Shown one piece after another: positions 38,373 through 64,000 of a stretch of 64,000 nt of DNA (positions within the stretch are counted from its first letter, which is position 1; each line of letters starts with the position of its first letter). Source of the DNA: Nitrospira sp. (GTDB lineage Bacteria; Nitrospirota; Nitrospiria; Nitrospirales; Nitrospiraceae); assembly GCA_029865225.1 (NCBI GenBank), contig JAOUHJ010000012.1, positions 1 to 64,000 of the forward strand, written 5' to 3'. The notes under the pieces are model-generated. The model saw nothing but the letters and a program-made list of their open reading frames with translations. It was not told where the DNA came from and searched no databases. A program made the position numbers and the translations under genes.

Positions 38373-39920
38373 CTACAGCACCCGCCAGGTGCGACCGTCG
38401 TTTTGGATGAGGCGGTCGGCTTCCACTGGGCCCCACGTCCCGGCTTGGTATTCGGGCAGCCAGCGTTGGCCGGACTTCTCCCAGGCTTCGAGGATCTGAG
38501 TGATCCAGGCCCAGGACGCTTCGACAGCGTCGCGCCGCATGAAGCGTGAGGCGTCACCCGCCATGACGTCAAGCAAGAGGCGTTCATACGCTTCCGGAGA
38601 GGGACGGCCGAATACTTCTCCGTACTGGAAATCCATTTCAACGGGATGTGTGTGAGCGCGGGTCCCCGGCACGCGGGAGACGATGCGAAGCGAAAGCCCT
38701 TCCTCCGGCTGAATTTTCAAGGCTAAGACATTCGGGGCCTGAGGATTCTGTGCATTGGCGTTGAAGAGAATCTGCGGGATGTCTTTGAATTGGACCGCGA
38801 CTTCACTGGCCCGTAAGGGCAACGCTTTTCCGGTCCGCAAATAGAAAGGGACTCCGGACCATCGCCAGTTTTCCACGAAGCATTTCACCGCCACGTAGGT
38901 CTCAGTGGTGGAGTCGGGCTTCACGCCTTTTTCACGGCGATAGCCTGGGACTGGGGCGTCATGGACCTTTCCTTCCGTATACTGAGCTCGCACGGTGCAC
39001 TTCTCCACATCCTTTGCCGTGATGGGCCGCAAGCAGCGGAGAACTTCCATTTTGGCGTTTCGCACGACGTCTGGATCGAGAGAATAGGGCGGCTCCATCG
39101 CAACCAAGCAGAGCAACTGCAGCAAATGATTCTGAATCATGTCGCGCAACGCGCCGGCTTCTTCGTAATAGCTTGCTCTGGTGCCGACGCCTTCCGCTTC
39201 ACTCACGGTGATCTGTACATGGTCGACGTATTTGTGATTCCAGATCGGCTCGAAAATGCTGTTGGCGAAACGGACGACCATGAGATTCTGAACGGTTTCT
39301 TTGCCCAGATAGTGATCGATCCGGAAAATCTGTGACTCGTCGAATACACGGCCTGTGACCTCGTTGATGGCTTTCGCGCTGGCCAGATCCCGCCCGACCG
39401 GTTTTTCTACGATGATGCGGGTGTAGGGAGAGCGAGGTCCCGGAGTTCCTGCCAGACCGGAATGAGACAACCCTTCGCAGACTGCGGTGAATGAGCTGGG
39501 TGGAATGCTGAGATAAAAAATGCGATTTCCTGGCAACTGGAACTGGCGCTCGAGTTCTTCGGCTCGTTCTTTGAGCCGCGCATAGGTCTGGGGATCGTCG
39601 TTTTCTCCTGCCAGATAAAAGAGGTGTTCAGAAAACGTGCTCCATGTCTCGTCGATCAGGGCCTGCCGGGAATGCGTGACGACGCCCTCGCGGACTGTCG
39701 TGCGAAACTCCTCGTCGGTCATCGGCGTGCGACCTAAACCCAAGACCAGGTAGTTCGAGGGGAGGAGGCCATCGAGGAGGAGATTGTACACGGCAGGAAT
39801 GAGGCGGCGCTTGGCGAGGTCTCCAGATCCTCCAAAAATGACAAGTGTGCAAGGCTCCACTGGAGGAAGAGTTTCTTTCGCAGGGCTGATATCGATCCGT
39901 TGACTGGTCGTCGGCGCCAT
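38373..39920 (-). CDS. zwf: Glucose-6-phosphate 1-dehydrogenase
   Basis: First enzyme of the oxidative pentose phosphate pathway, making NADPH. Motifs: IFGGSGDLAKRRLIPA near residue 28, the active-site RIDHYLGKE near residue 200, and EKPVGRD before it. Length 515 is normal. TAGGAGG lies seven to eight bases before ATG at 39920. gnd lies upstream on the same strand, with the 127-bp repeat ending just before the zwf ribosome binding site. 6-phosphogluconolactonase is not in the window. Confidence 0.97.
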   Translation of the reverse strand: MAPTTSQRIDISPAKETLPPVEPCTLVIFGGSGDLAKRRLIPAVYNLLLDGLLPSNYLVLGLGRTPMTDEEFRTTVREGVVTHSRQALIDETWSTFSEHLFYLAGENDDPQTYARLKERAEELERQFQLPGNRIFYLSIPPSSFTAVCEGLSHSGLAGTPGPRSPYTRIIVEKPVGRDLASAKAINEVTGRVFDESQIFRIDHYLGKETVQNLMVVRFANSIFEPIWNHKYVDHVQITVSEAEGVGTRASYYEEAGALRDMIQNHLLQLLCLVAMEPPYSLDPDVVRNAKMEVLRCLRPITAKDVEKCTVRAQYTEGKVHDAPVPGYRREKGVKPDSTTETYVAVKCFVENWRWSGVPFYLRTGKALPLRASEVAVQFKDIPQILFNANAQNPQAPNVLALKIQPEEGLSLRIVSRVPGTRAHTHPVEMDFQYGEVFGRPSPEAYERLLLDVMAGDASRFMRRDAVEASWAWITQILEAWEKSGQRWLPEYQAGTWGPVEADRLIQNDGRTWRVL

Positions 39921-39933
39921 CAAGTCCTCCTAT

Positions 39934-40060
39934 GCAGGATGCTGAAAAAGTCCTCCAGCTTCGTTCTCGCGTCGCTCAGAAGCTCAACGTACAGAAATAA
40001 GCACGCTTCCGCTTCTTCGCTCACTGCGGCCTTGCTGGAAGGCCTTTTTGAACATCCTGC
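39934..40060 (+). repeat. 127-bp palindromic repeat, copy 2 (between gnd and zwf)
   Basis: Ends GCAGGATGCTGAAAAAGTC and CTTTTTGAACATCCTGC form imperfect inverted repeats, extended inward by CCTCCAGC with GCTGGAAGG. Read on the + strand it aligns along its full length with the minus-strand reading of copy 1 at 7866-7992. Shared blocks are ATGCTGAAA, CGTTCTCG, CTCAACGTAC and TGCGGCCT. No coding potential and no clear target duplication. It sits three bases upstream of the zwf Shine-Dalgarno, so it may affect zwf expression. Confidence 0.75.
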
Positions 40061-40080
40061 AGATTATTCTGATTCGAGCA

Positions 40081-40974
40081 TCACCGACGTACTGCGTGAC
40101 CTCCGAAGGCATTCCGGAGAGCCGCCAGCATTTTTTCCGCAAACGATTCTTCTTGCCGCGACCGGAATCTGGTAAACAGCGCGGTCGTCAAGGTTGGAAC
40201 TGGTACGTCCTTTTCGATCGCATCCGCAATCATCCAGCGGCCCTCTCCCGAGTCCTGCACATAGCCTTTCAGGTGTTCCAGCTTGGGATCCTGTTTGAGT
40301 GCCCCTGCTGCCAACTCCAGGAGCCAGGATCGGACGACACTGCCATGCATCCACAGATCCGCGACGCGAGCGAGGTCCAGTTTGTATTCGCTCTTCGCCA
40401 TCAATTCAAACCCTTCCGCATAGCCTTGCATCATGCTGTACTCAATACCGTTGTGGACCATCTTGACATAGTGCCCAGCTCCGACCCCTCCGACGTGAGC
40501 CCAGCCGTTCTCCGGCGCAAGGGTCTTGAAGACCGGTGCAAGCCGTTGGACCACTGATTCCTCGCCACCGACCATGAGGCAGTAGCCGATCGTCAGCCCC
40601 CAGATGCCTCCACTCGTTCCGGCATCCACATAGTGGAGTCCTTGCTTCTTCAGTTCGGCGGCACGACGGACATCGTCATGAAAACGGGTATTCCCCCCAT
40701 CGATGATCGTGTCACCGGGTTTCAACAACGCGGCGACCGCCTGCACTGTTTCTTCCGTTGGTGCGCCGGACGGCACCATGATCCAGACGGCACGCGGGGC
40801 GGTAAGTTTACTCACCAGATCGGCAAGCGACGAAGCACCGACACAGCCATGCCCTTCTGCCTGTTTGATCAGCTCGCTGGAACGATCATACACGACGACC
40901 CGGTGCTGATCGCGCCGCAGACGGATGACCATATTCATGCCCATCTTACCTAGCCCAACAAATCCCAGTTCCAT
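40081..40974 (-). CDS. gnd: 6-phosphogluconate dehydrogenase, decarboxylating (short NAD-type)
   Basis: 297-residue form of 6-phosphogluconate dehydrogenase, about 170 residues shorter than E. coli Gnd and resembling the YqeC/GntZ group. N-terminal MELGFVGLGKMGMNMVIRL binds the nucleotide. VDAGTSGGIWGL and HVGGVGAGHYVKMVHNGIEY are the substrate and catalytic segments. The Asp-Arg after the second strand (VVYDRS) favours NAD over NADP. AAGGAG lies six bases before ATG. Likely cotranscribed with zwf, giving the oxidative pentose phosphate branch. Confidence 0.93.
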   Translation of the reverse strand: MELGFVGLGKMGMNMVIRLRRDQHRVVVYDRSSELIKQAEGHGCVGASSLADLVSKLTAPRAVWIMVPSGAPTEETVQAVAALLKPGDTIIDGGNTRFHDDVRRAAELKKQGLHYVDAGTSGGIWGLTIGYCLMVGGEESVVQRLAPVFKTLAPENGWAHVGGVGAGHYVKMVHNGIEYSMMQGYAEGFELMAKSEYKLDLARVADLWMHGSVVRSWLLELAAGALKQDPKLEHLKGYVQDSGEGRWMIADAIEKDVPVPTLTTALFTRFRSRQEESFAEKMLAALRNAFGGHAVRR

Positions 40975-41111
40975 AAGGACTCCTTGGTATGAAAGACGAT
41001 AATCGAGGATGTCGCGCGTGCCGAGCCTTGTTCGAACAGGCGGATGTCCCTTCCGTTTCCTACAAAGTCAGGCCCTTCCGCAGGGCATGCTGGTTCCCTA
41101 GAGGCTTGCGG

Positions 41112-41921
41112 TCAGTCGATGCGAGCAGGATTTGGGACATCCTTAAAGAGAAGATCGGCAAATTGTCGGCCAAAGTTGAGCTTGTCGGAAAGAGTCGTGG
41201 CTGTGAGGAACTGCCCGGCCAAGTCCGCGAGAGTCGGTTCGCGCGAGAACATGAACCGATGAACGTCCACCGGGGCGACCAGCCAAAACCCTCTCAGACG
41301 AAAGAATGCGCCGATGCAGTCTTCGTAGAATAACGTCAATAGATAGTGGGCTGTTCCAGGTTTCTCTACGAGATCCTGGGCTTTCCCAAGCTGGTGATAG
41401 CATTGCGCCTTCAGGCGAATCTGTTCATTGATAGAAGCCGGGGGCGGCCCTTGCCGAAACTGATGGTGCACTTTTTCGATCAGTTTGGCGCAGACGCCAT
41501 CGTGATCGTAGAGGATGCGACCCTTTCGAAGCAGGGAAGGAAGTCGGAGGGAATAGGCAAGGTCCTCTTCCACGGACTGGTACCCATGGTACCGAATATC
41601 TGCGAGCCGGTCGCCGACGCGGAGAATCTCGTGATGGTCGGCCTCTCCCTTGACGAGGGCAATCACGTCGATATCGCTGTGGGGTGTGACGGACCTTCGC
41701 GCGCCTGATCCAACGAGGATGGCGCCCACCAAATCACCACCCCGTCGGCCTTTCACGTGGCGTAAAACAACCTCCAAGCCATCTTCAAATCCTGGCGGAG
41801 GGGGGAGCTCTGGCTGTTCCGGCGGTTCCGGGACCTCGAGGAGCTCCGCGTTCAGTTCCTCACGAGAGGGAAGACTTGTTGTGGTATCTGTGTTCATGAC
41901 GGTCTCGGGGGTGTTAGCCAT
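41112..41921 (-). CDS. Nucleotidyltransferase-domain protein
   Basis: 269 residues: a Pro/Glu-rich N-terminus (about 45 residues), then a polymerase-beta-type nucleotidyltransferase with GSGARRSVTPHSDIDV (GSx10DxD). A helical C-terminal domain follows (QIRLKAQCYHQLGKAQDLV, HYLLTLFYEDCIGAFF) that resembles HEPN-type helices but lacks an obvious Rx4-6H site. This layout fits a self-contained MNT-helical protein such as a kanamycin-nucleotidyltransferase relative. Substrate unknown. The start is either 41921 or 41897; no clear ribosome binding site. Confidence 0.78.
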   Translation of the reverse strand: MANTPETVMNTDTTTSLPSREELNAELLEVPEPPEQPELPPPPGFEDGLEVVLRHVKGRRGGDLVGAILVGSGARRSVTPHSDIDVIALVKGEADHHEILRVGDRLADIRYHGYQSVEEDLAYSLRLPSLLRKGRILYDHDGVCAKLIEKVHHQFRQGPPPASINEQIRLKAQCYHQLGKAQDLVEKPGTAHYLLTLFYEDCIGAFFRLRGFWLVAPVDVHRFMFSREPTLADLAGQFLTATTLSDKLNFGRQFADLLFKDVPNPARID

Positions 41922-42069
41922 CACGCGTATGAATCAATCCTGTATGCCATCGGGAGATTACCGGTGGCTTTATGGCTGACGCCCAGCCCGATACACGACA
42001 GGGAACCAGCCTGAGACATCGCTCCCAGGCATTCTATGGGGCAAGAAGGAAGGTGTCAACGTTGAACGG

Positions 42070-43101
42070 TCAATGCGTAAGAACTTTGGAAAAGATGGCG
42101 GCGGCTTCGTCGATTTGTTTTCCCACGATATTCAAGTGGGTGACCGCTCTGTACGTGTTTCCACCAAGCGCATTGATGAGCACGCCCTGTTCTTCCAGTG
42201 CGCCCACGAGCTCGGCAGGGGTGCGCCGCGCGTCGATGATGTCAAAAATCACGATGTTCGTTTCCACATGCTGGGGGACGATCTGGATTGCGGGGATTTG
42301 CTGAAGTAAGCGTGCAAGTTTCTTCGCATGTTCATGGTCGGTCTTCAGACGTGGGACATGCCGCTCGAGCGCATAGATCCCAGCGGCAGCCACGATGCCG
42401 GCCTGACGCATGGCGCCGCCGTACATCCGACGGAATCGGCGCGCGCGATCGAGGACCTGTTGGTCGTTCGAGAGCAACAGGGATCCAACCGGGGCTCCGA
42501 GGCCTTTGGATAAACAGAGCGACACGGTTTCAAAGTGCTGCGCATACACCGTCGGTGGCAGTGTCGTCGCAGCGACGGCGTTGAACAGCCGCGCCCCGTC
42601 AAGGTGCATGGGGATTCCGTGCCGGACGGCGATGGCACGGATTCGCTCGATGGTGGAGAGCGGATAAATCGTGCCGCCTCCGGCGTTATGTGTGTTCTCA
42701 AGGCAAATTAAGGCTGTCGTGACGCTGTGGGGATCGTTCGGTCGGATAGCCGCTTCGACCTGCTCCGCAGACATGACGCCGCGCTCACCGTAGATCCAAT
42801 GGAGTTGCACGCCCGCCAACGCACCCGCAGCGCCCTGCTCGTAGCGGACGATGTGACTCTTGCTCTCCACGATAATTTCCTGTCCGGGCTGGGTCTGTGA
42901 TCGGATCGCGAGTTGATTGGCCATCGTCCCGGACGGGACGAAGAGTGCGAAGCGCTTGCCGAGCATATTGGCCGCCATATCCTGAAGACGATTGACGGTC
43001 GGGTCTTCCCCATAGACATCATCGCCGACCTCGGCACGCGCCATGGCTTTCCGCATCTCGTCCGTTGGTTTGGTGACGGTGTCGCTCCGAAGGTCGATCA
43101 T
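42070..43101 (-). CDS. ltaE: Low-specificity L-threonine aldolase
   Basis: PLP enzyme that splits L-threonine/allo-threonine into glycine and acetaldehyde. Family markers: [20 protein letters not shown] at the start, [37 protein letters not shown], and [16 protein letters not shown] with the PLP-binding Lys. GGGAGGGGG lies just upstream of ATG at 43101, fixing the start and giving 343 residues. Divergent from the transporter gene. Confidence 0.95.
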
Positions 43102-43192
43102 GCATGCCCCCTCCCGGGAATTCCCCATGGTTTGAGCATTCTAGCAGATATATTACTTACAGGCGAAACGATAACTGATACAGTGCTGAGGC

Positions 43193-44476
43193 ATGGCCGA
43201 ACCTGATCGACCATTTCTGACTCGCTGTGCTGAGTTTCTCGGAGCCGAACGGGAAGAGCTCGTTCCATTGGCCTGGGCGTTCGCCTATTTCTTCTGTCTC
43301 CTCTGTGGCTATTCCATCCTCCGTCCCGTTCGTGACGAAATGGCTATTGAAGGGGGGTTGCACAATCTTCCATGGATGATGTCCGGAACCTTCCTGACCA
43401 TGCTCTGCGTCACACCGCTATTCGGATGGCTCTCGGCGCGATGCTCGCGTTACCGATTGCTGTTGACCGTCTACACGTTCTTTATCACCAATCTCCTGTT
43501 GTTTTATGGGTTCATGACGAGTCAGATGGCTCCGGAGTGGGTGGCTCGGGGATTTTTTATCTGGTTGTCGGTGTTCAATCTGTTCATCGTCTCGGTGTTC
43601 TGGAGTTTTATGGCCGACCTCTTTACCCCCGAGCAGGGGGCGCGATTGTTCGGAGTGATCGCCGCAGGGGGGAGCAGCGGAGCGTTGATCGGTCCGCTCT
43701 TCACAACGGGCCTTACGTTTCTATTCTCGGTTCCGGTGCTGATGCTCGCATCAAGCCTATTTCTCGTCGCCTGTCTCGGCTGTGTCTATTGGTTGGAACG
43801 ATGGGGACGGAGGCAGAGTGCCCACCATCGGGCTCAGCGGGGCGAGCCTCTTCATGGGAGTTTTCTCGCCGGAATTCGTCTGACGTTTTCGTCGCCGTAT
43901 TTACTTGGGATTGGCGGCTATCTGAGTCTTCTCACTATGACAGCCACCTTTCTGTATCTTGAGCAGACTCGATTGGTATCGGAGTATCTCGACCAACCGG
44001 AGGCGCGCACCAGGCTCTTCTCTTCGGTAGATTTCCTGACCAGTCTTCTCACGTGGTTGACCCAGATATTTATCACGCATCGGGTCATCGGTCGGTTCGG
44101 CTTGATTGCACCGTTACTGTTTCTCCCACTCATCAGCTTGGCCGGGTTCGTGGGAATCGCGGTATGGCCGACCCTCGTGCTCTATGTTGTCTTTTCCGTA
44201 GTCCGGCGAGTGGGGGAGTATGCGCTCTCGAAACCAGCACGGGAGGTTCTGTTCACGGTCGTCAACCGTGAAGAAAAATATAAGGCCAAGAACTTCATCG
44301 ATACAGCCATCTCACGCGGCGGCGACGCCTCGACAGCCTGGCTGGTGACTGGCCTGAAAACTCTGGGTGCCACCACGACTCACATCGCCTGGGCATTGGT
44401 TCCCATGATGGGGCTGTGGGCTTGGCTGGCCTCTGTGCTGGCGCGAGAAGAAAAACGCCGGTCGGCATCTACCTGA
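43193..44476 (+). CDS. MFS-like transporter related to ATP/ADP carriers
   Basis: 427 residues with about 11-12 hydrophobic helices and no other domain. The N-terminal AWAFAYFFCLLCGYSILRPVRDEMAIEG resembles the bacterial NTP/NDP exchanger (TLC)-related branch of the major facilitator superfamily. Other conserved pieces are FWSFMADLFTPEQGARLFGVIAAGGS and RVGEYALSKPAREVLFTVVNREEKYKAKNFIDT. In free-living bacteria the substrate of this branch is not known, and parasite-type ATP import is not implied. GAGG upstream of ATG. Confidence 0.82.
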   Translation: MAEPDRPFLTRCAEFLGAEREELVPLAWAFAYFFCLLCGYSILRPVRDEMAIEGGLHNLPWMMSGTFLTMLCVTPLFGWLSARCSRYRLLLTVYTFFITNLLLFYGFMTSQMAPEWVARGFFIWLSVFNLFIVSVFWSFMADLFTPEQGARLFGVIAAGGSSGALIGPLFTTGLTFLFSVPVLMLASSLFLVACLGCVYWLERWGRRQSAHHRAQRGEPLHGSFLAGIRLTFSSPYLLGIGGYLSLLTMTATFLYLEQTRLVSEYLDQPEARTRLFSSVDFLTSLLTWLTQIFITHRVIGRFGLIAPLLFLPLISLAGFVGIAVWPTLVLYVVFSVVRRVGEYALSKPAREVLFTVVNREEKYKAKNFIDTAISRGGDASTAWLVTGLKTLGATTTHIAWALVPMMGLWAWLASVLAREEKRRSAST

Positions 44477-44542
44477 TTTGCTCCGAGTCGTGTATCGGTC
44501 TCGAGGTGAGAACCAAGTCATCACGTGGCGCTATAACTCGCG

Positions 44543-45373
44543 TTAGTCTCGAATCACAAGGGAATCGATCACGTAGGAGCTGGCTCGTCCTGCTCTGGTT
44601 CCTCGCAGCCGCACTTCCGATACATCGCGTACCCATTCGCGAATATTCCAGGTGGTACCCGCCTTCAGCTCCTGCCAGAACCACCAGGTCCCATCGCGCT
44701 TTCGGAACCACAGTTGGATCGAGGTATCCGGCAGTATGCGAATAGATTCCATGTCGAAATACGTGGGAGCGTGATTTTCAGCATCACTGACCCAGACCTT
44801 GATCCACTGGTTGAGATCATGGGAGGACAGGACCCGGGGGGTTCTGGCCCAATCGACATTAGTGCACTTCCATTCGACCAGCCTGCCAAAGCCTCGCCCT
44901 AGGCCGTCTCCGGGATCCGGCAAGGTGTAGCACTCGATTCCAGTTTCCATACTAAGGTGAAAATGAGCGAGACCCATACTATCCAGATTCACATCATGCC
45001 TGGAGCAGTGTTGGCGATAGGTCCAGCAGTCACTATGTTTGGAGGGATCGCACATCTGCAATTGCCCGGAAGGTGCCCGGCCTGTTTTGTGGGCAATGGT
45101 CGACCTGGCCTGGGCGAGGATGTGGCTCAGCGCGCCTTCATCGTCGAAATCTACCACACACTGTTGCTGATTAGTCCCCTCCGGACGTGCCTGCACGACC
45201 TTGGGAGTGGGGCTCTCTCGATCTCGTTCTGCTGCTTGTTCAGGGGTCGCTTGCGTCGGAGCATTCATGGGCTTCAGAGGTTTCAGCTCCGTACAGCCTC
45301 CCAGTGCACCAGCCATGAATATACAGAGCATCACCCAAGGGCCATGCCCAGCCATTCGTGCCTCAAACCACAT
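44543..45373 (-). CDS. Lipoprotein of unknown function
   Basis: About 276 residues with a lipoprotein signal (LCIFMAGALGGCTEL), a Pro/Glu linker, then a Cys-containing domain (CDPSKHSDCWTYRQHC). The C-terminus is beta-rich, with patterns such as IRILPDTSIQLWFRKRDGTWWFWQEL and a terminal SSYVIDSLVIRD that recall carbohydrate-binding-type beta sandwiches. No family recognised. GGAGG lies four bases before ATG at 45373. Converges with the transporter gene. Confidence 0.72.
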   Translation of the reverse strand: MWFEARMAGHGPWVMLCIFMAGALGGCTELKPLKPMNAPTQATPEQAAERDRESPTPKVVQARPEGTNQQQCVVDFDDEGALSHILAQARSTIAHKTGRAPSGQLQMCDPSKHSDCWTYRQHCSRHDVNLDSMGLAHFHLSMETGIECYTLPDPGDGLGRGFGRLVEWKCTNVDWARTPRVLSSHDLNQWIKVWVSDAENHAPTYFDMESIRILPDTSIQLWFRKRDGTWWFWQELKAGTTWNIREWVRDVSEVRLRGTRAGRASSYVIDSLVIRD

Positions 45374-45485
45374 CGGTCCTCCTCTCACGCGGGTAAGCTG
45401 CGCCTCTATGTACCAAGTACCAACTTCTCAGGCGTGATCCTCAGGCCTGAATTGTTCTCGGCGAAACACAACAGACGATACCCGG

Positions 45486-45515
45486 TTTACTCGTCAAAAA
45501 AATGCGTGGTATAGT
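45486..45515 (+). promoter_or_regulatory. Candidate promoter upstream of the proA-like gene
   Basis: TTTACT at 45486, an 18-base spacer and TATAGT at 45510 give a reasonable sigma70 match. The leader to ATG 45603 would be about 80 bases. No strong hairpin is seen in the leader. Confidence 0.42.
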
Positions 45516-45602
45516 CCCCGACGGGTCGGCATCATTTTCTCAGGGTCTCGGCTTGAATGCAATGAATCCTTAGGACGCAATCGCGCAAAAGCTCTATCTC
45601 CC

Positions 45603-46970
45603 ATGCCGCCAGAAATCCCCAGTAAGCTCTATATCGACAAGCTATTAAAGAATAGCAGAAAAGTGTCGCTGGAGGTGTCTCGTCTTTCTGGTGCGGTTAA
45701 GTCGGCTGCGGTTCATGCCATGGCTGACCGGGTCTTATCGGATCAATCGGTCATTCTCGAGGCCAACGCCAAGGATATTGAAGCCTTAGGAAAGTCTCTC
45801 GACAGCGCTGATGCGAGAAATCGGATGAAGGCTGCGGTCGCTCGAGTGCGTGTGACGGCCGACCATATTAAGGAGATGGCAGATCGACTTCATCTCATCG
45901 CCGATCTACCGGATCCCGTCGGACTCGTGACCTCCAGACAGGAACGTCCTGATGGGCTGCAAGTGTCACGGGTAAGGGTGCCGATCGGGGTCATCGGGGT
46001 GATTTCCGAGCGGAATCCGCTTGTCATGGTGGAATCGATCGCGCTCTGTCTCAAGTCGGGTAACCTGTGCATCTTTCGTGGAGCTGCGGACTGGCGATGG
46101 ACGAATCAGGCGATTGACGTTCGGTTGCAGGACGTGGCGGTAGCGGGTGGCCTGCCACCGGGGGCATGGGTGCTCATCGACCGCGATGAAAAGGAAGTGG
46201 CGCTCGAATTGATGCGAGCGGGAAAAGGTCTGGATGCGATGATCGTGCGAGGCGGACCCGGTTTGCGGAAAACCGCTGCAGAGCAAGCCAAGGTTCCAAT
46301 CCTCTGTGATGACGGCGGGCTCACGCATTTGTATATTGATGAAGACACTGATCTTCCCATGGCGCAGAATCTGGTGATCAATTCAAAAGTGCAACACACG
46401 GGGGCCGCCAACGCGCTCGATACGTTGCTTGTGCAGCAGGTCGTGGGACGACAGTTCTTGCCTCCATTGATCAATCGACTGCTGGACCAATTCAAGATTG
46501 AAGTACGCGCGTGCCCAAAGACGGTCGCGCTGATGGGGCAGATGGCGATGACAGGTCATACGGCCATCGTTCCAGCTACGGACGGTGATTGGCAGACACA
46601 GTTTTCCGGTCCGGTTCTCGCTATTAAAATGGTAGAAGATCTCAGTGAGGCCTTGGAGCACATTGAGGCGCATGGCCCCTGTCTCACCGCCGGGATTGCC
46701 ACCAGTCGCTATGACTCGGCCATGCGGTTTACGCGAGAGGTCAATGCCGGTGCGGTATTAGTGAACGCGTCGACCAGGCTTCATGCCGGCGATGGTTTCG
46801 GGATGGGAACCGATATGGGACTGAGTGTGGGGAAGCTGCATGCCAAAGGTCCTATCGGCTTGGAGCAATTGACCTTCGAGAAGTACGTGGCATTTGGGAT
46901 GGGTCAACTCCGATTGCCGCATCCCGTTCCGGACACCTACTTTGATGCCATCATGCTCAAACGGCCGTGA
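45603..46970 (+). CDS. ProA-like aldehyde dehydrogenase homologue lacking the catalytic cysteine
   Basis: 455 residues, aligned throughout with gamma-glutamyl phosphate reductase: [52 protein letters not shown], and the C-terminal [37 protein letters not shown]. The region that should read QRPxxCNAxETLLV instead reads [15 protein letters not shown], placing Ala269 where ProA has its nucleophilic Cys. The upstream GxCHxYVD loop is also changed (GGLTHLYID). The rest is well preserved, so this is not obvious decay. It may be a non-catalytic paralogue or an enzyme with altered chemistry; no proB is adjacent. Confidence 0.85.
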   Translation: [455 protein letters not shown]

Positions 46971-47021
46971 TTCTCGTGAAGTGAGAAACGTGGGGCGTAT
47001 CTCCTAACCCCTCATGGCCCG

Positions 47022-48230
47022 ATGCCGTCAGTCATTAGCCCTATGCTCCGTTCCTCGGACGAGAGACGAACGACGCTTCACGATCACCTTGCCTGGTGGG
47101 GACTTCGGCATTTCACGTCAGATCCCGAATATTTCGCATGGCAGCGACAGCACCTCTCATCCGACGAGCTCGCGCAGCTTGCACGCCTCGCTGAACAAAA
47201 ATGCGAGGGCTCTCGCGCCGATGAGATCGCCTTTTATGATCGCACGGCATCCCCAACGATCTTTCCCGTTCTCTACAGCCAGCGCTATGAATACTATGAG
47301 GAACTTGGGTGCCGGGTCTGTGGGTTGCTTGGCTCGGCGGAGGCCATTCTGGATTTCGGCTGCGGCCCAGGAATTTTGACGACCTTTTACGCTAGGCAGT
47401 TTCCCGATAAGACGTTTGTAGGACTTGATCGTTCGCGTGCCTCGATCGAGCTCGCGCAGCATATGGCCGGTGAACTCGGCGTGGCCAACATTCGCTTCGA
47501 ATGTGTCGATGCTGAGGCGGACGCATTATCAGGATGTTACGATCTGGTGATTGCGACCCATGTGCTGATGCAAGCCGAGCATGATCCAGGGCTTCCCAGC
47601 CTCAGTTGGCAAACGTTCGAGCGCGGACATGATCCACCGCAGCAATCCTCGTTTGAGCAGCGGACGGGGCTTGGAGTCAGGCTTGATCGGGTGTGTGAAG
47701 TCTTACGGCCCCACGGCCGGATGATTGTGAGCGAGAAAACCAGGCAACTGTCCCGGCGTGTGCCTTTTCAACGGGCCTTATCAAGGAGGGGATTCGATCT
47801 GGTGGGACCTCCTGCATTGGTTCACTATCGAACTATCGAAGAAGCAGTAGATGATGGACCCCTTTTTCTTGTGCATCGAGGATTCCAGACATCATCATCT
47901 TGGGATGAAAGACCTGAGCGGGATGATGGTCCCCCGTTTGTTCAGGACATGGCCCACTCCGTGAGCGATCCTGAGAAGCCGTTGTGCGAAAACCATTGGC
48001 CGTCGGCTCAGGGCGTGTGGGAGGAGTTGCAAGATCGTGTCGTCGTGCACGAGACCACTCGGCAAGAACCGGACGGCCGACAAGTGCATGTTGAACGTGG
48101 CACGAGCGGCGACTTCTCCTACCTGTACTGCGCGAATACCTTCGATCAACGGCAAGTCGTGATCGACAAGCGGGCTCGGTCGGCGATGATCGATGCCTAC
48201 TACCAAGAAATCATCCGAGGGCTCCCCTAG
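47022..48230 (+). CDS. SAM-dependent methyltransferase with C-terminal extension
   Basis: 402 residues. The N-terminal 90 residues are helical; a class I methyltransferase core follows with motif I AILDFGCGPGILTTFYA, FVGLDRSRASIELAQ and YDLVIATHVL. After the core comes about 170 residues (from RPHGRMIVSEKT on) with no family I recognise, ending in DKRARSAMIDAYYQEI. Substrate unknown. The start at 47022 lies about 50 bases after the ProA-like stop; 47043 (MLRSSDE) is possible. Confidence 0.78.
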   Translation: MPSVISPMLRSSDERRTTLHDHLAWWGLRHFTSDPEYFAWQRQHLSSDELAQLARLAEQKCEGSRADEIAFYDRTASPTIFPVLYSQRYEYYEELGCRVCGLLGSAEAILDFGCGPGILTTFYARQFPDKTFVGLDRSRASIELAQHMAGELGVANIRFECVDAEADALSGCYDLVIATHVLMQAEHDPGLPSLSWQTFERGHDPPQQSSFEQRTGLGVRLDRVCEVLRPHGRMIVSEKTRQLSRRVPFQRALSRRGFDLVGPPALVHYRTIEEAVDDGPLFLVHRGFQTSSSWDERPERDDGPPFVQDMAHSVSDPEKPLCENHWPSAQGVWEELQDRVVVHETTRQEPDGRQVHVERGTSGDFSYLYCANTFDQRQVVIDKRARSAMIDAYYQEIIRGLP

Positions 48231-48420
48231 TAATGCTACTTGATTATACTAGCGGGTGCAGACCTCGCTCGCACTAAAATCAAAAAATACCTGATATTCC
48301 CCTTGCAATCGACGATTCCCCTCGCTACCCTGAATTCGCTTTCCAATATTTCGCTGGCCGTAGACACGTGGCGTTCTCGTTCGTGCTCGTTCCGGGCGTG
48401 AGTCGGAAGGAGGAATCACC

Positions 48421-49053
48421 ATGAAAGCGGCGCACATTCTTCTTGCCGCGCTGAGTTTGGTTTTCACCGGGTGTGTCACACCCCCAGAGGTGAAACAAGC
48501 CCTCATCGCCAAAGACCACGCGTACATCGAGAGCCAGCGTTTGATGGAGGGATACCGTGAGCTGGTGCAGCAGGTCACCTCGCGCCATCACCAGTGGTAT
48601 CGGTATGTTCAAACTCGGCTGAAACTCAATCTTGCGCTGCAATGGGCCACGACGAATCCGAAGTTGACTGACGTCGGCGATGCGGATTTAGCCGGCGATG
48701 ATGCGGATCTATTGGGGCCTGAGGTGATCGCGCTGATCAACGACCTTCGGCTCAAGCATCTTCCGGAGCGAAAAGGGCCGACGGGGCAGGTGGTGTTTCA
48801 GGCAGGCACCGCAGATATGAACACGCTCCTACAGAAGCTCCCTGAGTTGATCGGGCGAGTGGAACAGCGTGTCGAGAAAGATTCGGCAGTGTCCTCGACG
48901 ATGGACGTGGCGGCGTTCGATCAATACCGTACGAACGTCGAGGCAGTCCGGCGGATCAACGCTATCATCAAACAATACTTGGATATCGATGTCACCTTAT
49001 CCCGCAATGAAGTGCAATCACTGGCCGAGGCTGTGAGAACGCTGCGTCGCTGA
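48421..49053 (+). CDS. Lipoprotein with helical mature domain
   Basis: 210 residues, lipoprotein signal LLAALSLVFTGCVTPP, then a helix-rich acidic/basic mature part without cysteines (LMEGYRELVQQVTSRHHQWYRYVQTRLKLN). GGAAGGAGG lies eight bases before ATG. First gene of a tightly spaced run of five + strand genes ending at 52116. No family recognised; the heptad-like pattern suggests it packs against other helices, perhaps the products of the next two genes. Confidence 0.75.
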   Translation: MKAAHILLAALSLVFTGCVTPPEVKQALIAKDHAYIESQRLMEGYRELVQQVTSRHHQWYRYVQTRLKLNLALQWATTNPKLTDVGDADLAGDDADLLGPEVIALINDLRLKHLPERKGPTGQVVFQAGTADMNTLLQKLPELIGRVEQRVEKDSAVSSTMDVAAFDQYRTNVEAVRRINAIIKQYLDIDVTLSRNEVQSLAEAVRTLRR

Positions 49054-49088
49054 GGCGGTATGTTCTGTTCGCTGGGGAGGTCAGAAGG

Positions 49089-49799
49089 ATGATGAATCGA
49101 CAAGGTGCAACCTTGGTAATCGGGTTGGTTCTCATGAGCGTGGTGGGCTGCAACTCGATTCACAGTGATGCCGTGCGCGATCTCTTGCACAAGGAAGGCG
49201 CAAAGATCGACGCGGCTCAGACGAACATCGACCTGTTTCAAAAAGAAACGGAAGAGAGGATCAAGTTCTTAGAAAAGGCCCGGAACGATTTGCACGAAGC
49301 CTTCAAGTCGCTGCGGACACACGAGACGAAGCACCAATTCGTCCTCTCGTCCTATCGCAATGTTGCGAGCAAAAAAGGCGAGGCCGCCTATGCTGCGGCC
49401 TATCTCGTCAGTCAGATCTATCTGGCTGATTACCAAGGATTGGAAAAGGCCGTGTGGGATCAATTTGAAGACGATTTCTGCGGTCTGCGCGATGCCGCAA
49501 ATGCCTTGAACGACTCCTGGAAAAAGACGGCGGCGCTCCATGCCCAATTGAGGCGCTATGCTGACAAATCCGCTCTCGCGTCGGTCGACCCTGAGTTTGT
49601 GTCCGCGTTGATCGAACAGGCTCCAGGACAGTCGGATCGTATCATGGAGATTGTCAACCACTCACGAACCGTCAATGATGCGTTAGAAGAAGTCGTGGGC
49701 GCGCGTATCGTGCGCGTGCACGCGTTGCAACGCGCCCAGACGTTGACATCCGACTTGGTGAACCTTCTGGATAACCTGAAGAAAGAAGACGGGCAATAG
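49089..49799 (+). CDS. Lipoprotein with coiled-coil mature domain
   Basis: 236 residues, lipoprotein signal LVIGLVLMSVVGCNSI, then long helices with heptads (ERIKFLEKARNDLHEAFKSLRTHE, and again at the C-terminus). 35 bases after the previous gene, with AGAAGG close to the tandem ATG ATG start (49089 or 49092). The two lipoproteins are similar in plan but not clearly homologous. Probably envelope-located, role unknown. Confidence 0.75.
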   Translation: MMNRQGATLVIGLVLMSVVGCNSIHSDAVRDLLHKEGAKIDAAQTNIDLFQKETEERIKFLEKARNDLHEAFKSLRTHETKHQFVLSSYRNVASKKGEAAYAAAYLVSQIYLADYQGLEKAVWDQFEDDFCGLRDAANALNDSWKKTAALHAQLRRYADKSALASVDPEFVSALIEQAPGQSDRIMEIVNHSRTVNDALEEVVGARIVRVHALQRAQTLTSDLVNLLDNLKKEDGQ

Positions 49800-49813
49800 G
49801 AGGAAGCACCACC

Positions 49814-50332
49814 ATGGAAACCAGTATCGCGGGGGTCGTGGGTTTTCTGGAAGACAACGACAGCCTGATCAAACAGTTGATGGAGACTGCCGAGAGCGCG
49901 CATCAGGAGATCAGCGATTTGTCTGTTCAGGTAGACCATGCTCGTGAAGAAGCGAATGGTTTGGTCGATCGGCTCGGTGCCGTGGAATTTGCGGTCGGGA
50001 AGACTGATGAAACCAGAGTCCGTCAAAAGGCGCTCTTGGAAGCAGTCGCGGCGCTGCGAAAAAAGTTCGAGACCTACAAAAACGACCCCCTTCGGCGCGG
50101 AATCTATGCGGCAGAGATTTCCAATCTCTACGTGCAGCTGGCCAATACCTTCAATAATGAGACGATTGCCCAGGTCGTCCCGTTCAGCACGGACGAAATC
50201 AAAACCTACAAAGATTTGATGAGAGAGGCGGTTCTCGACGCGGCATCTCGTAAGAAACGCGCCGCGGTCATTAAGGCTGCCGCGCGTGTTTCGAGGCTTG
50301 CGATCGGAATTGCCGGGAAATTGGCGGTGTGA
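49814..50332 (+). CDS. Coiled-coil protein of unknown function
   Basis: 172 residues, almost wholly helical with coiled-coil heptads in residues 10-90 (IKQLMETAESAHQEISDLSVQVDHA). No signal peptide, so unlike its neighbours it may stay in the cytosol, although the C-terminal 25 residues (VSRLAIGIAGKLAV) are mildly hydrophobic. GGAGG lies seven bases before ATG, 14 bases after the previous stop. Likely cotranscribed with the flanking lipoprotein genes. Confidence 0.75.
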   Translation: METSIAGVVGFLEDNDSLIKQLMETAESAHQEISDLSVQVDHAREEANGLVDRLGAVEFAVGKTDETRVRQKALLEAVAALRKKFETYKNDPLRRGIYAAEISNLYVQLANTFNNETIAQVVPFSTDEIKTYKDLMREAVLDAASRKKRAAVIKAAARVSRLAIGIAGKLAV

Positions 50333-50351
50333 GGGTGTGAAAGACCGATCG

Positions 50352-51125
50352 ATGCGACAGGCGTTCGTTCTCTGCATGGTTGTGGGGATTGGGAGCGGGT
50401 GCACGCTGGATGCCGGCTCACGTGGCCCCTTTGGACCTGAGGATCCGGAAACCGCAGCGCAGAAGGCCAAGTTGCCTGAGGAGGTTCCTTCTCCTCACAG
50501 TCTTCAGTTTACCGGTGAAGAGACCGCTGGGCACCACAAACCGAAAATGGTTGGTGTTTCTGGAGAGACAGCCGTGAAGCGGGCTGTCAATGAATCGGTC
50601 GTGCTGACTGCCGACGAGGTGGCGACCTTCCGAACGGTGGCCGAGAACGACCGAGGCGTCATTCCGCAGCTTGGGAGCCGTTGGGCCTTCATCGACGCCG
50701 ACCGGATTCCACCGGATGGCAAAATTACATTTGGCTGTTGTCGGCAGACCACCGGCCTGGTTCGCCTTGTTTATTACAGCTACAGTCAGAATGTGGCTGT
50801 CGAAGTCCGTGTGAAGAAATCAGGTGTTCTTAGTGTCGATCGGCGTGACGGGTATCAGCCACCGGAAGGTCAACAAGATGTGCAACGGGGAATCGAATTA
50901 GCCAAAGCGGACCCTCGTCTGGTCGGTAAAGTCGACCAACTACAAGGGCACGGACTTCTGATGCAGCCTGATCAGGGATTCTTTCGAAATGATCCGGGCT
51001 ACGGCCATCGGACGATATGGATTACGTTTTCAGAGGGACAGGGCGGTGATCCCAAATTTTGGGCGGTTATTGACCTCACGGAAGATAAAGTTCTCGAGGC
51101 CGGTGAAGAGCCGCCTCGTTCGTGA
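50352..51125 (+). CDS. Lipoprotein with PepSY/amine-oxidase N-domain-like fold
   Basis: About 257 residues with lipoprotein signal VLCMVVGIGSGCTLD. The mature part resembles the small N2/N3 domains ahead of copper amine oxidase catalytic domains. It has YQPPEGQQDVQRGIELAKADPRLVG (the usual QPP...ADP run) and HRTIWITFSEGQGGDPKFWAVIDLTEDKV, a PepSY-like strand pair. The next gene, 10 bases on, looks like the catalytic half. ATG at 50352 is chosen over the earlier GTG because the signal peptide starts there. The resemblance is by eye and needs profile confirmation. Confidence 0.55.
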   Translation: MRQAFVLCMVVGIGSGCTLDAGSRGPFGPEDPETAAQKAKLPEEVPSPHSLQFTGEETAGHHKPKMVGVSGETAVKRAVNESVVLTADEVATFRTVAENDRGVIPQLGSRWAFIDADRIPPDGKITFGCCRQTTGLVRLVYYSYSQNVAVEVRVKKSGVLSVDRRDGYQPPEGQQDVQRGIELAKADPRLVGKVDQLQGHGLLMQPDQGFFRNDPGYGHRTIWITFSEGQGGDPKFWAVIDLTEDKVLEAGEEPPRS

Positions 51126-51135
51126 GAGGAGGGTG

Positions 51136-52116
51136 ATGAAGAGAATCTGTTCTATCGGTGTCTTGCTGCTCTGCATGTTTTCCTGGTTGGGAACGGCTTT
51201 CGCCGAGACACAGTCCGAACACGTGACCTGGGGGCCGTGGAGTTTCGACTGGGAGGTTCGGGACAACACAGGGCTCGCACTGCGAAACGTGAAGTACGCC
51301 GATGAGCTGATACTCGCCAAGGCCAGTATGCCGGTGGTTCGTGTGAAGTACGTCAAGGAGCGGGTCTGGTGGAATCCGTTTACGTGGTTCGGCTCGCGTG
51401 CTGATAGCGGGCGATGTGGACCATTTCAAGACCGGCTGCGGTGGCAGGATCTGGTTCCGATCCTGAATTGCGGTGATCAAAAGGTCTGCATAGAAAGCTC
51501 AACCCAGAATACCGCGAAGTGGCTCGAGGTGGGCATCTATGCGCGAATTGGCGAATATCATCTGTATCAATCATGGCATCTCTCGGAAGATGGGGAAATC
51601 CGTCCCGTGCTGCATAGCCGAGGCCTATCGTGCAATACCGACCATGATCACCATCCCTATTGGCGTTTCGACTTTGATATTAACGGGAATGGAATGGACC
51701 AAGTCTTTGTACATGAAGACGGCGGGGCAGATTATGGATGGGGTCCAGGGTGGAGGAAGTACACGAATGAGCGAAATGATGTCAAGATTCCTGTGCTCAA
51801 CAAGACGTGGTTGATTCGTGATCAACTGAACGGCCACGGGGTCTGGGTGATCCCCGGTACAGGGTACGATCCATTAAAGGACGATGGCGAGCGGGACAAG
51901 TTTGCTGATTTCGATGTGGCCATCCGTCGCGCCAACGTGAGCGAGGATGTGCCATGGAGCTTTGGAGCACGCGGCCAACTTGGGTATGACGAAGACAATC
52001 AAGGTGTCCAAGAGCAAGACATTGTGTTCTGGTACGTGGCTCATCTCCCCCATAGAGCTGCCCTGGGTCCGACGAAATGGCTGACCCTTGGACCCATCCT
52101 CCGTGTGCAGCGGTAG
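51136..52116 (+). CDS. Exported protein resembling a truncated copper amine oxidase catalytic domain
   Basis: 326 residues with a Sec signal (SIGVLLLCMFSWLGTAFAE). Similarities to copper amine oxidase: WGPWSFDWEVRDNTGLALRNVKY at the domain start, ARIGEYHLYQSWHLSEDGEI where the topaquinone Tyr (T-x-x-N-Y-D/E) lies, HDHHPYWRFDFDINGNG like the HxH copper ligands, and VFWYVAHLPH like the third His near the end. Candidate residues are Tyr141, His170/172 and His303. The Asn before the Tyr is replaced by Glu, and the domain is shorter than usual. GAGGAGG before ATG 51136. Activity is doubtful. Confidence 0.5.
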   Translation: MKRICSIGVLLLCMFSWLGTAFAETQSEHVTWGPWSFDWEVRDNTGLALRNVKYADELILAKASMPVVRVKYVKERVWWNPFTWFGSRADSGRCGPFQDRLRWQDLVPILNCGDQKVCIESSTQNTAKWLEVGIYARIGEYHLYQSWHLSEDGEIRPVLHSRGLSCNTDHDHHPYWRFDFDINGNGMDQVFVHEDGGADYGWGPGWRKYTNERNDVKIPVLNKTWLIRDQLNGHGVWVIPGTGYDPLKDDGERDKFADFDVAIRRANVSEDVPWSFGARGQLGYDEDNQGVQEQDIVFWYVAHLPHRAALGPTKWLTLGPILRVQR

Positions 52117-53815: not shown

Positions 53816-54158
53816 AGGTCGGTTACCTTTATTTGTAGCAAGTGATACGTGATCTTAAGGGTAAAATCGATAGTAGATCATTCCCTTGACGATGAGCGGT
53901 CTTTGCCTAACAGCCACAAGAGGTCCGTAGAGATTCCCTAACCGAAACAGGACTTCTGGTGCGGTCGTATCTGGATATTGTAATCGATTCGACCATGGAT
54001 ACCATAGAGGGTAATTTATTCTCTCGTTCGACCACATCATTGATCGTTACCTTGACTCCATTTCCGTCGCTTTGTTAGAGTGTTCAACCCAAGTCTAAGC
54101 GATTGAAAGATCCACTGTTTCTGAACCGTTCCCATAAGCAAATCGAGGCAACACCGTG
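53816..54158. other. Spacer between the small acidic gene and the NHL gene
   Basis: Contains a candidate 60-residue leftward gene (53855-54040) and, toward the NHL gene, a weak + strand promoter candidate: TTGACT at 54052 followed after 17 bases by TTAGAG. Otherwise nothing recognised. Confidence 0.4.
53855..54040 (-). CDS. Putative 60-residue protein
   Basis: Frame of about 60 residues, Tyr/Trp/Pro-rich (NERINYPLWYPWSNRLQYPDT), ending IYYRFYP. Its ATG ATG start is preceded by AAGGTAACGATCA, closely like the leader of the 57-residue gene 39 bases downstream. That shared leader is the main support. No family recognised; may form a two-gene unit with the acidic protein. Confidence 0.4.
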   Translation of the reverse strand: MMWSNERINYPLWYPWSNRLQYPDTTAPEVLFRLGNLYGPLVAVRQRPLIVKGMIYYRFYP

Positions 54159-57125
54159 ATGAAAGACTGGCTCTTTGATGACATCCGCTACGCCGATCGG
54201 TTCCGTCTCTTCGTTCAAGGTCTTCATGATGAATGGGGTGGTGGGGATTCGGTAGCGGAGGAGGAAGAACTTCCGTCTCCTCCCCAGAATGTTCAGGCCA
54301 AACCCGGCAACGGACGTATTACGATTACATGGGATTCGGTTCCGGATGCCATGTATTACAACCTCTATTTTCAGACGACGAAGGGCGTACAGATCAAGTT
54401 TTCCGAGCTGACCCGTCCGATTGCCAGCTCCGACGATTTCAAGAGTGTCATCGGTGTGAAAAAAGAGAAGGCCAGCTGTATCGAAGGTCCGACCAGTCCT
54501 TACGTTCACGACGACCTTGCGAATGGGACCTGTTATCACTATGTGGTCACTGTGGTGACCTCGAAGGGAGAAAGTCCTGAATCGCAAGAAGTGATGGCAA
54601 TTCCGTCGCCGTATCTCCTCTCGATGGTGATTGGTCGGGAAGGTGTGGAGGATGGTGAGCTCAGCTCCCCCACGGGGGTTGCGCTCGACAAGGACGGCAA
54701 TATCTACGTGGCCGATACCGACAACCATTCGATCCAAAAATTCGACAAGACCGGAACGTTTTTGGCTCGATGGGGGGGTGAGCCCAGTTCCCAGGAAGGG
54801 CAGTTCTATTATCCACGAGGGCTGGCGGTTGGACCGGACGATGTTGTGTATGTGGCTGATAGCGGAAATAACCGTGTGCAAAAGTTCGATTTGGAAGGCA
54901 ATGTGCAGAAGGCCTGGGGCAAGTTTGGGTTTGCCTGGCGCGGTGCCGATATGGGCCGCTTCGACGTGCCGTGGGGACTCACGACGGATCAAGACGGGAA
55001 TGTCTATGTGTCTGATACCAGCAACTCGCGCATTCAAAAGTTCCAAGCCGATGGCCAACCGCTGTTGAAATGGGGACGCGACGGCAGCTTCGACGGGGCA
55101 TTCTTTTTCCCCCGCGGTGTGGCGGTGGATTTCGTCGGCAATATCTATGTCGCCGATGAGAGCAATAACCGTATTCAAAAGTTCGATACCCGCGGCAGCT
55201 TTTTGACGAAATGGGGTCGCGAGGGAAATGGACCTGGACAGTTCAAGTCGCCGTGGGGCATCGCGTGCGATGCACTCGGGAACGTCTATGTCGTCGATAG
55301 TGGAAATCACCGAATTCAGAAGTTCGACGGCAACGGAACCTTTCTCTGCTCGTTCGGCAATCGAGGGAAAACCGAGGGGCAGCTCAATTTCCCCTATGGG
55401 ATCGCAGTGGATAAGGAAGGGTGCGTCTTCGTCGTCGATAGCGGCAATAACCGCGTGCTCAAGTACATACCGACTGAAGAAGAAATGAATCGTGGTAAAG
55501 AGCAGCCGACGCAGGTAGAGGAGGTCGGATCAATACAGCCACCCCGCAGTCTTGCGGTGAAGGCCGGCGATACGGAGGTTTTCCTGAGCTGGATGGAAGT
55601 GCCGGGCGCCCAAGCCTACAACCTCTATTTCAGTACCTCTCCTCATCTCACGATACAAGGAGCGACCAAGATCGAAGGCGTGACGAATCCCTATACGCAC
55701 GAAGGTCTTACGAACGATACCCCTTATTTTTATGCGGTGACGGCGTCATTCGAAGATGGGGCGGAAAGCGGCTTATCGGAAGAAGTGACGGCGACGCCTG
55801 TCCTGATTGATATCACGGCACCGCAGAATCCGTATGCGGTGATCAACCACGGAGCGTTCATGACGAACTCACCGGATATCGTCGTGACGATCTCAGCCAC
55901 CGATTTAGACACGGGGGTCGGCGCCTATTTCATTTCGGAAAGCCCATTGACTCCCATGGCCGGTACTCCGGGGTGGGTCGAGGTGACACCGGCCATCAAG
56001 TTTGGGGCGACCATTCCCTTTATACTGTCCCCTACGGACGGGCAAAAAACGATTTACGTGTGGTTTAAGGATGTCGGCAATAATGTCTCGACACCAGCGA
56101 CCGCGACCATTCTGGTCAATACGTCCGGATATCTGTGTGTGGCGAAATGGGGGAAGCCGGGTCGTGGCGCGTCGCTGTTACATGGCGGCGAATTCATGGC
56201 ACCCATGTATGGACTCGCCGTGGATCAGCAGGGATCGCTGTTTGTCGTCGACAACGGCAACAATCGCATTCAGAAGTTCGATAACGCTGGAAACTTCATT
56301 ATCCTCTGGGGGAACTTCGGGTCGGCGAACGCCAACTTTCACAATCCGACTGGGATGGCCTGCGACGGGAAAGGCGATGTCTGGGTGGTCGACACGAACA
56401 ATCATCGCGTGCAAAAGTTCGATGGCAAGCTTGGTGGATATCTGATGAAATTCGGCTCGCGTGGGAACGGCGAGGGGCAGTTTAATGCCCCGTGGGGGAT
56501 CGCGGTCGACCGTGTACGTGGCTACCTCTATGTCGTCGACAGCGCAAATTTCCGTGTACAAAAGTTCGACATGACGGGCGAGTTCATCATGGCCTGGGGC
56601 AGCTTTGGGAATGGCGATGGGCAGTTCTATTTTCCGCGCGGCGTGGCCGTCGATCAGGAGGATGGATCGGTCTACGTCGTCGACATGGGGAACCATCGCA
56701 TCCAGAAATTCGACACCAGTACCAATGTGTTGCCGCAGTTGTTGACGAAGTGGGGAGGCAGTCCAGCTGCCGGGCATGCCAGCAGTCCGTTGGCACAGGA
56801 AGCCGGTCAGTTGCGCTCCCCTTGGGGAATTACCGTCGATGGGGCCGGCGACGTGTACGTGACAGATACGGGCAATCACCGCATCGAAAAATTCGACCGT
56901 GAGGGGAATTTCATCACGCAATGGGGCGGGTTCGGAAACGGTGACGGGCAATTCAATTTTCCCTATGGGATTGCGGTCGATGCGAAGGGGAGTGTCTTTG
57001 TCGTCGACAGCGGCAACACGCGCGTGCAGCAGTTCATGCCTGCGGAAGAGGGCAGTGAGCGGTTGCAGGATGAGGCCGAGGAGCTGGCTGAGTTGGAGAA
57101 GGCGCAACGAACCCAGAAAGTCTGA
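54159..57125 (+). CDS. Large protein with two NHL beta-propellers and fibronectin type III domains
   Basis: 988 residues. Order: fibronectin III-like domain (about 45-150, [33 protein letters not shown]), a first six-blade NHL propeller (150-440), a second fibronectin III domain (460-550), an Ig-like spacer (about 555-650), and a second NHL propeller (650-970). The propeller blades repeat P-G-AVD-GN-YVADS-N-RIQKFD. No signal peptide is visible, so it is either cytosolic or exported by a non-Sec route. NHL propellers bind proteins or RNA. GTG at 54156 or ATG at 54159, both behind GAGG. guaB follows 10 bases after. Confidence 0.92.
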
Positions 57126-62955: not shown

Positions 62956-62961
62956 CTTGCT

Positions 62962-64000
62962 ATGACTGCCAACACGCTCGGACGCATACTGACCCTCACC
63001 TCGTTTGGCGAGAGCCATGGTCCGGCTATTGGAGGTGTCGTCGATGGGTGCCCTCCAGGACTGGAGTTGTCCGCTCAAGACATTCAGAAAGATTTGGACC
63101 GACGCAAGCCTGGCACGTCTCGCCACGTCACGCAGCGGCAGGAATCGGACAAGGTTGAAATTCTCTCCGGAGTATTTGAAGGGAAGACCACGGGTACGCC
63201 GATCGCGCTGCTGATCCGGAATGAGGACCAACGCAGCCGGGATTATGGAAACTTGATCGATACCTTCCGGCCCGGGCATGCCGACTATACCTACTGGCAG
63301 AAGTACGGTATCCGCGACCATCGAGGCGGGGGACGCGCATCGGCTCGAGAAACAGCGGTTCGAGTTGCGGCGGCCGCCATCGCGAGAAAGTGGCTCAGAG
63401 AACAATACGGTGTGGTGATTCGGGGATATCTGAGCCAGCTCGGGCCGCATGAGTTGCCATTCAAGACTTGGGAGGCGGTGGGGCAGAATCCATTTTTCTC
63501 CGCTGATCCCGATGTCGTCCCCAAGCTCGAATCCTTCATGGACGAACTGCGGAAGGCTGGGGATTCAGTCGGGGCCAAAATCGCGACTGTAGCTAAGCAT
63601 GTGCCGGTCGGGTGGGGCGCCCCGGTCTATGCAAAACTGGATGCCGATTTAGCCGGAGCTATGATGAGCATCAATGCGGTGAAGGCGGTTGAGATTGGGG
63701 CAGGTTTCACCTCGGTGACTCAGCGCGGATCCGAACATGGCGACGAACTGACGCCAGAAGGCTTTCTCTCTAACAACGCCGGTGGCATTCTCGGCGGCAT
63801 TTCAACGGGGCAAGATATCGTCGTCACCATCGGCATCAAGCCGACATCGAGCATTCGTATCCCACGCAAATCCATCGACAAGAAGGGCAACCCGGTCATG
63901 GTCGAAACCAATGGCCGCCACGATCCCTGTGTCGGCATCCGTGCCACACCAATTGCCGAAGCCATGATGGCGCTGGTGCTCATGGACCATGCGTTACTGC
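62962..64000 (+). CDS. aroC: Chorismate synthase, cut by the window end
   Basis: Last step of the shikimate pathway: EPSP to chorismate with reduced FMN. The frame starts [20 protein letters not shown], with the family's FGESHG and GCPPGL signatures, [14 protein letters not shown] around residue 125, and stays open to the window edge (346 codons). The normal length is about 360-390, so only the C-terminal end is missing. The ORF track omits it because no stop is inside the window. It starts six bases after aspS. Confidence 0.97.

Follow-up and report, generated by a model that had tools for sequence, protein, structure and literature searches.

The window analysed here, a 64,000-nucleotide stretch of Nitrospira sp. 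DNA, encodes an intact ProA-fold protein, ProA2, with an alanine at the position of the nucleophilic cysteine of gamma-glutamyl phosphate reductase. ProA is described in textbooks, and its Cys is considered essential. In every case the gene that comes after the Cys-less copy encodes the same methyltransferase, so ProA2 has probably not decayed but turned into a non-catalytic partner or an enzyme of a new kind. In the reading we prefer, to which we give close to an even chance, ProA2 would be a pseudoenzyme that binds NADP(H) and serves the adjacent methyltransferase, with which it makes up a two-gene unit. The features on which the argument draws are the following:

45603..46970, + strand: ProA2, Cys-less paralogue of ProA (gamma-glutamyl phosphate reductase), 455 aa, ATG start, internal stops absent
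46005..46022, + strand: codons 135-140 (SERNPL), counterpart of the ProA YESRPN loop; S135 invariant in ProA2, 137/138/140 highly variable
46407..46409, + strand: codon 269 (GCC), encoding Ala where ProA has its nucleophile Cys (from sequence and alignment)
46917..46958, + strand: codons 439-452, C-terminal extension found throughout the ProA2 clade, with a core about 99% conserved, and lacking in ProA1
46971..47021, + strand: 51-nt gap between the ProA2 and methyltransferase genes; no terminator-like site found on this strand
47022..48230, + strand: partner gene, class-I SAM-dependent methyltransferase, 402 aa; motif I DFGCGPG and acidic D136 kept

ProA2 keeps the ProA fold and lacks the catalytic cysteine

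In profile searches ProA2 scores 379.7 bits against NF001221, above the cut-off of 289, 297.7 bits against TIGR00407, below the cut-off of 317.45, and 80.9 bits against the Pfam Aldedh family. The top structural match of its AlphaFold model (pLDDT 82.5) is the ProA of T. maritima (1o20; TM 0.83/0.91), and ProA2 is 41% identical to the ordinary ProA of the same genome, ProA1. In alignments with solved ProA and P5CS chains and with ProA1, Ala269 faces the catalytic Cys. A preliminary description of this DNA had placed Ala269 at the Cys position of a well-kept fold in an intact frame, and the GCC codon, the alignments, the uninterrupted 455-aa frame, the NF001221 score and the resemblance of the model to 1o20 bear this out. 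Realignment left Ala269 opposite the Cys and brought no substitute Cys nucleophile into the active site; the candidates were rejected, as C235 is Gly or Ser in many ProA2 sequences and C304, the only invariant Cys, is equally invariant in ProA1. Ala269 is not a sequencing error, because two base changes separate GCC from a Cys codon and because orthologues in independent assemblies also lack Cys. Among 139 ProA2 sequences the column is occupied by Ser (88), Ala (35), Pro (8), Thr (7) and Gly (1), and never by Cys; all 32 ProA1 sequences have Cys. The closed genome of the cultured Nitrospira moscoviensis (L091) carries a ProA2 with Gly at this position. Thus, where the earlier description asked about a conserved clade of the Ala form, it is the Cys-less form that makes up a conserved clade, and the conserved state is the absence of Cys, not Ala.

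A variable centre within a conserved scaffold

Position-wise entropy was compared in sets thinned to 25 ProA2 and 11 ProA1 sequences. In these sets residues 137, 138 and 140 (of the YESRPN loop), 269 and 395 are fixed in ProA1 but variable in ProA2, where entropy reaches the 90-93rd percentile for 137, 138 and 140, the 64th for 269 and the 79th for 395. According to PMC11061531, which cites PMC8963878, R712 and D715 of Drosophila P5CS bind G5P. Residue 395 of ProA2 corresponds to D715 by our own mapping, based on the C598/C255/E381 spacing, with C598 the nucleophile Cys of Drosophila P5CS and C255 that of 1o20; the Arg of the pair is kept in ProA2 (R392), and the Asp is Ala, Ser or Gly in most sequences (A395). 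The position of E. coli Glu383 (PMC4271523) is mostly Asp404 or Glu. N154, R159, R194, R216, G217 and K262 are invariant in ProA2, and from ALDH and ProA homology we infer that they form the NADP cradle; near the active site, N270, K262 and R392 are nearly invariant. Residue 197, which by our mapping takes the place of the adenine-contacting Arg525 of Drosophila P5CS, is Lys, Pro or Arg, mostly Lys (K197), so cofactor binding may be altered. The clade also has invariants of its own (S135, W164, R222, D273) and a C-terminal tail, PHPVPxxYxDAxML, about 99% conserved and not found in ProA1.

Judged by residue conservation, the pattern is that of an abandoned catalytic centre within a conserved scaffold, and NADP(H) binding without reduction is plausible. 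The preliminary description also suggested that ProA2 might bind an acyl phosphate. This idea is weakened: ProA2 retains neither the YESRPN loop nor the Asp to which gamma-glutamyl phosphate binds in ProA, and both sites vary within the clade. That ProA2 still reduces gamma-glutamyl phosphate or a related acyl phosphate, by means of another nucleophile, would agree with the NF001221 equivalog score, the kept fold and the prevalence of Ser at 269. We consider this highly improbable, however, as about a third of the clade has Ala, Pro or Gly at 269, there is no invariant Cys specific to ProA2, the substrate Asp is gone, TIGR00407 falls below its cut-off, and a normal ProA1 is present. ProA2 very probably does not make glutamate-5-semialdehyde. 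The NCBI equivalog model names it glutamate-5-semialdehyde dehydrogenase, and metabolic models of Nitrospira may consequently count a second ProA.

Distribution, origin and selection

In a search of the whole phylum Nitrospirota, a ProA2-grade match (E <= 1e-112) was found in 98/98 genomes of two Nitrospirales families, the window's own (f1) and f3, and in 0/198 of the other genomes, which gave ordinary ProA-grade matches or none; genomes outside f1 and f3 that were searched again with loci have Cys-type ProA. A collection-wide scan with peptide patterns from one sequence returned at least 80 loci; its reach is that of close relatives, distant homologues in other phyla being possible, and the named records of close relatives among the matches listed are Nitrospira or Nitrospirota assemblies, including the closed N. 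moscoviensis. A plasmid search gave ProA-like matches only, all below 60% identity. We found no description of a Cys-less ProA, or of a second ProA in Nitrospira, in the open-access literature.

In a tree built by a quick method, with SH-aLRT support only, 31 ProA2 sequences form one clade (SH-aLRT 100) beside the ProA1 of f1 and f3; the group of ProA2 and f1/f3 ProA1 is supported at 99, and the ProA of a further family, f2, diverges earlier. Four outgroup rows were copied from printed alignments and are flagged as long or odd, and their placement is therefore not interpreted. The simplest history suggested by the tree is a single duplication of an ordinary proA within the order Nitrospirales, before the split of f1 and f3. 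On this phylogenetic evidence ProA2 is an ancient second copy beside a normal ProA1, kept by a whole group within Nitrospirales, nitrite-oxidising and comammox Nitrospira included, since before the two families diverged.

ProA2 is under strong purifying selection: pairwise dN/dS is 0.03-0.12, compared with 0.07-0.13 for ProA1 and 0.11-0.24 for the methyltransferase, and nearly all of the 139 orthologues have intact frames. The loss of a catalytic residue, taken alone, would fit a decaying relic or an error of assembly; the dN/dS values, the intact orthologues, the closed N. moscoviensis genome and the clade-specific invariants leave such a reading a negligible probability, and we rejected it.

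The window's genome, 99.98% complete, contains one other ProA, the ProA1 mentioned above, on contig C83 (L002:1257-2579, - strand), with the ordinary Cys motif VQRPSTCNAMETLLV; the second, Cys-containing proA for which the preliminary description proposed to look is thus present. A dedicated glutamate kinase paired with ProA2 was sought and rejected, the genome having a single proB above cut-off. ProA2 occurs together with this single proB and, in nearly all genomes that carry it, with ProA1, from which it derives. This would suit a role in regulating proline synthesis, in which ProA2 either joined ProA1 or ProB in mixed oligomers or sequestered glutamyl phosphate, and the methyltransferase was no more than a co-transcribed neighbour; the AdoMetDC prozyme offers a precedent for a dead paralogue as activator (PMC6221367). 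Such a role is nevertheless quite unlikely: it does not explain why ProA2 and the methyltransferase are never separated in either family, ProA2 no longer has the YESRPN loop or the Asp for binding glutamyl phosphate, and proA2 of the window's genome lies on a contig other than those of proB and proA1.

An invariant methyltransferase neighbour

The methyltransferase gene directly follows ProA2 in 55/55 long loci and in 20/20 loci of other genera, and it lies downstream on the same strand, with gaps of 3-282 nt, in 135/135 loci where both are readable. When open reading frames from 34 diverse loci were clustered, only ProA2 and the methyltransferase were found in 34/34, the other wide clusters being antisense shadows. 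In f3 the genes upstream of ProA2 are the translation genes rpsB, tsf and frr together with a pyrH-type (amino-acid-kinase-family) kinase, unlike the zwf/gnd/threonine aldolase set of f1, and it follows that the pair travels as a unit. A wider operon was rejected, since zwf, gnd, the nucleotidyltransferase, the threonine aldolase and the TLC-like gene upstream are common to f1 only and vary even there. No full-length methyltransferase was found in f2, f4, G011 or G020, all of which also lack ProA2, nor in 38 other Nitrospirota genomes, which gave matches to the SAM-binding core only. In G011 and the incomplete G020, which belong to a smaller set of relatives, a contig gap would account for the absence of both genes. 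Once the species tree was allowed for, the evolutionary rates of the two proteins showed no coupling (partial correlation -0.10 and 0.05), which lends a partnership no support. Nor do the data support a connection with nitrite oxidation, because f2, a family without ProA2, also has an NxrA-like protein.

The SAM site of the partner is well preserved, with D111, G115, G117 and D136 invariant in 52 sequences and a Methyltransf_31 match in 52/52. Its structure model (pLDDT 93) resembles solved structures in the generic SAM core only, with whole-chain TM of 0.25-0.38 among those listed; the N-terminal helical and C-terminal beta-rich regions have no Pfam match, and no curated equivalog model scores over its cut-off, the best being BioC (37 vs 185 bits). 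A match to mad2 in the PADLOC defence library (51 bits) covers the SAM core only and is generic. By these profiles and residues the partner belongs to an unnamed family of SAM methyltransferases and is apparently active. It shares the SAM core, motif I and the acidic residue after strand 2 with class-I small-molecule methyltransferases (Methyltransf_25/31; UbiG, TehB, plant N-methyltransferases), but unlike these it fits no curated family and has terminal regions without a Pfam match.

The main rival to our reading starts from the same adjacency. ProA2 could be catalytically active through a new chemistry that needs no Cys; NADPH might, for instance, pass hydride straight to an imine or carbonyl without a thioester. 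The methyltransferase would then carry out the next or the previous step of a two-step pathway leading to a small molecule. The invariant pairing, the resemblance of the apparently active partner to small-molecule N-/O-methyltransferases, the kept cofactor-cradle residues, the new invariants S135, W164, R222 and D273, and the retention of N270, K262 and R392 all agree with it. However, the canonical positions 137, 138, 140, 269 and 395 drift freely in the clade, which is unexpected of a conserved new active site there, and no third conserved pathway gene was found among the 34 loci. We regard this pathway as somewhat unlikely, while recognising that the adjacency also fits two sequential enzymes and that N270, K262 and R392 could mean residual chemistry, both of which count against a pseudoenzyme partner.

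A possible pseudoenzyme partner of the methyltransferase

In the preferred reading, ProA2 as a pseudoenzyme partner, an ordinary proA was duplicated once in Nitrospirales. Neither the catalytic Cys nor the glutamyl-phosphate site survived in the copy, which kept the ALDH fold and a probable NADP(H) cradle, as sequence and tree show. Invariant adjacency and co-distribution show that strong purifying selection maintains it as half of a unit with the methyltransferase. The pseudoenzyme subunit would bind NADP(H), or a ligand gated by NADP(H), and its clade-specific surface and C-terminal tail might dock on the methyltransferase in a physical complex. So docked, it could activate the methyltransferase, offer it its substrate, or make its activity depend on the NADPH state. 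We advance more hesitantly, as a doubtful extension, a new Nitrospirales two-protein system in which a dehydrogenase fold without its nucleophile would sense NADP(H) and, as the obligate partner of a methyltransferase, tie methylation to the cell's reducing state.

ProA2 has lost catalytic residues, maintained its fold and stayed under purifying selection, the marks of an ALDH-fold pseudoenzyme, and may well be inactive. Like ProA (NF001221/TIGR00407; 1o20, 4ghk, 8zok) and the GPR domain of P5CS (ALDH18), it has an ALDH-like fold, and with ProA it shares the Asn after the Cys position, the RGG and LRG cofactor motifs and a common ancestry inside Nitrospirales. Unlike ProA and P5CS, it is without the catalytic Cys and the G5P-binding Asp, its YESRPN loop is replaced, a C-terminal tail is added, and it is paired with a methyltransferase. 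ALDH16A1, a described ALDH pseudoenzyme, is also an ALDH fold from which catalytic residues have gone and a probable non-catalytic partner (PMC10650815). It is, however, eukaryotic and of another ALDH family, whereas ProA2 is bacterial, of the acyl-phosphate reductase branch and part of a two-gene unit. We know of no methyltransferase partner of ALDH16A1. An inactive subunit beside an active enzyme, as proposed for ProA2, is found in the trypanosome AdoMetDC prozyme (PMC6221367) and in DRM3, which serves DRM2 (PMC2965745); these are paralogues of the enzyme they activate, while ProA2, a dehydrogenase relative, would serve an unrelated methyltransferase.

The second proA, the Cys-less clade and the absence of a replacement Cys make a regulatory pseudoenzyme or a new reaction, the pair of possibilities named in the preliminary description, the right alternatives. 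That description holds in part: the Cys-less clade and the second proA support it, but it missed the methyltransferase and its acyl-phosphate idea has lost ground. With its fixed partner, what began as an odd residue becomes a two-gene system open to direct assay, for which ProA1 is a clear control.

Other observations

Three assemblies (G246, G005, G014) gave a ProA2 match and no Cys-type ProA; one is rated 100% complete, and contig gaps are probable. A 1.8-Mb f1 genome (G191; C7, C14) has two full-length ordinary ProA-like genes in addition to ProA2. At one locus of genus g18 (L168; G259:C47, about 4537-5787) the ProA2 match is split, residues 4-334 lying in one frame and 417-454 in another, by a frameshift or a divergent middle part; the methyltransferase is next, as usual.

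Within the window, Rfam matches were absent from 40000-52000 and tRNA genes from the full 64,000 nt. A cluster of zwf, a 6-phosphogluconate dehydrogenase-like gene (gnd), a nucleotidyltransferase-like gene and threonine aldolase (38373-43128, - strand) lies upstream of proA2 in most f1 genomes, not in f3. Adjoining the threonine aldolase is an MFS protein (43193-44476, + strand) that scores 30 bits against the TLC ATP/ADP transporter family (Pfam PF03219); a carrier of this type would be unusual in a free-living nitrifier. Lipoprotein-like orphans flank the pair at 44543-45388 (- strand), for which no Pfam family was found, and 48421-52116 (+ strand), and occur in close Nitrospira only (25 and 16-17 of 55 loci). 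Two long frames on the - strand, one of 590 aa (61678-63450) antisense to an aspartyl-tRNA synthetase-like gene and one of 408 aa (54084-55310) antisense to a gene for an NHL-repeat-like protein, are probably shadow ORFs.
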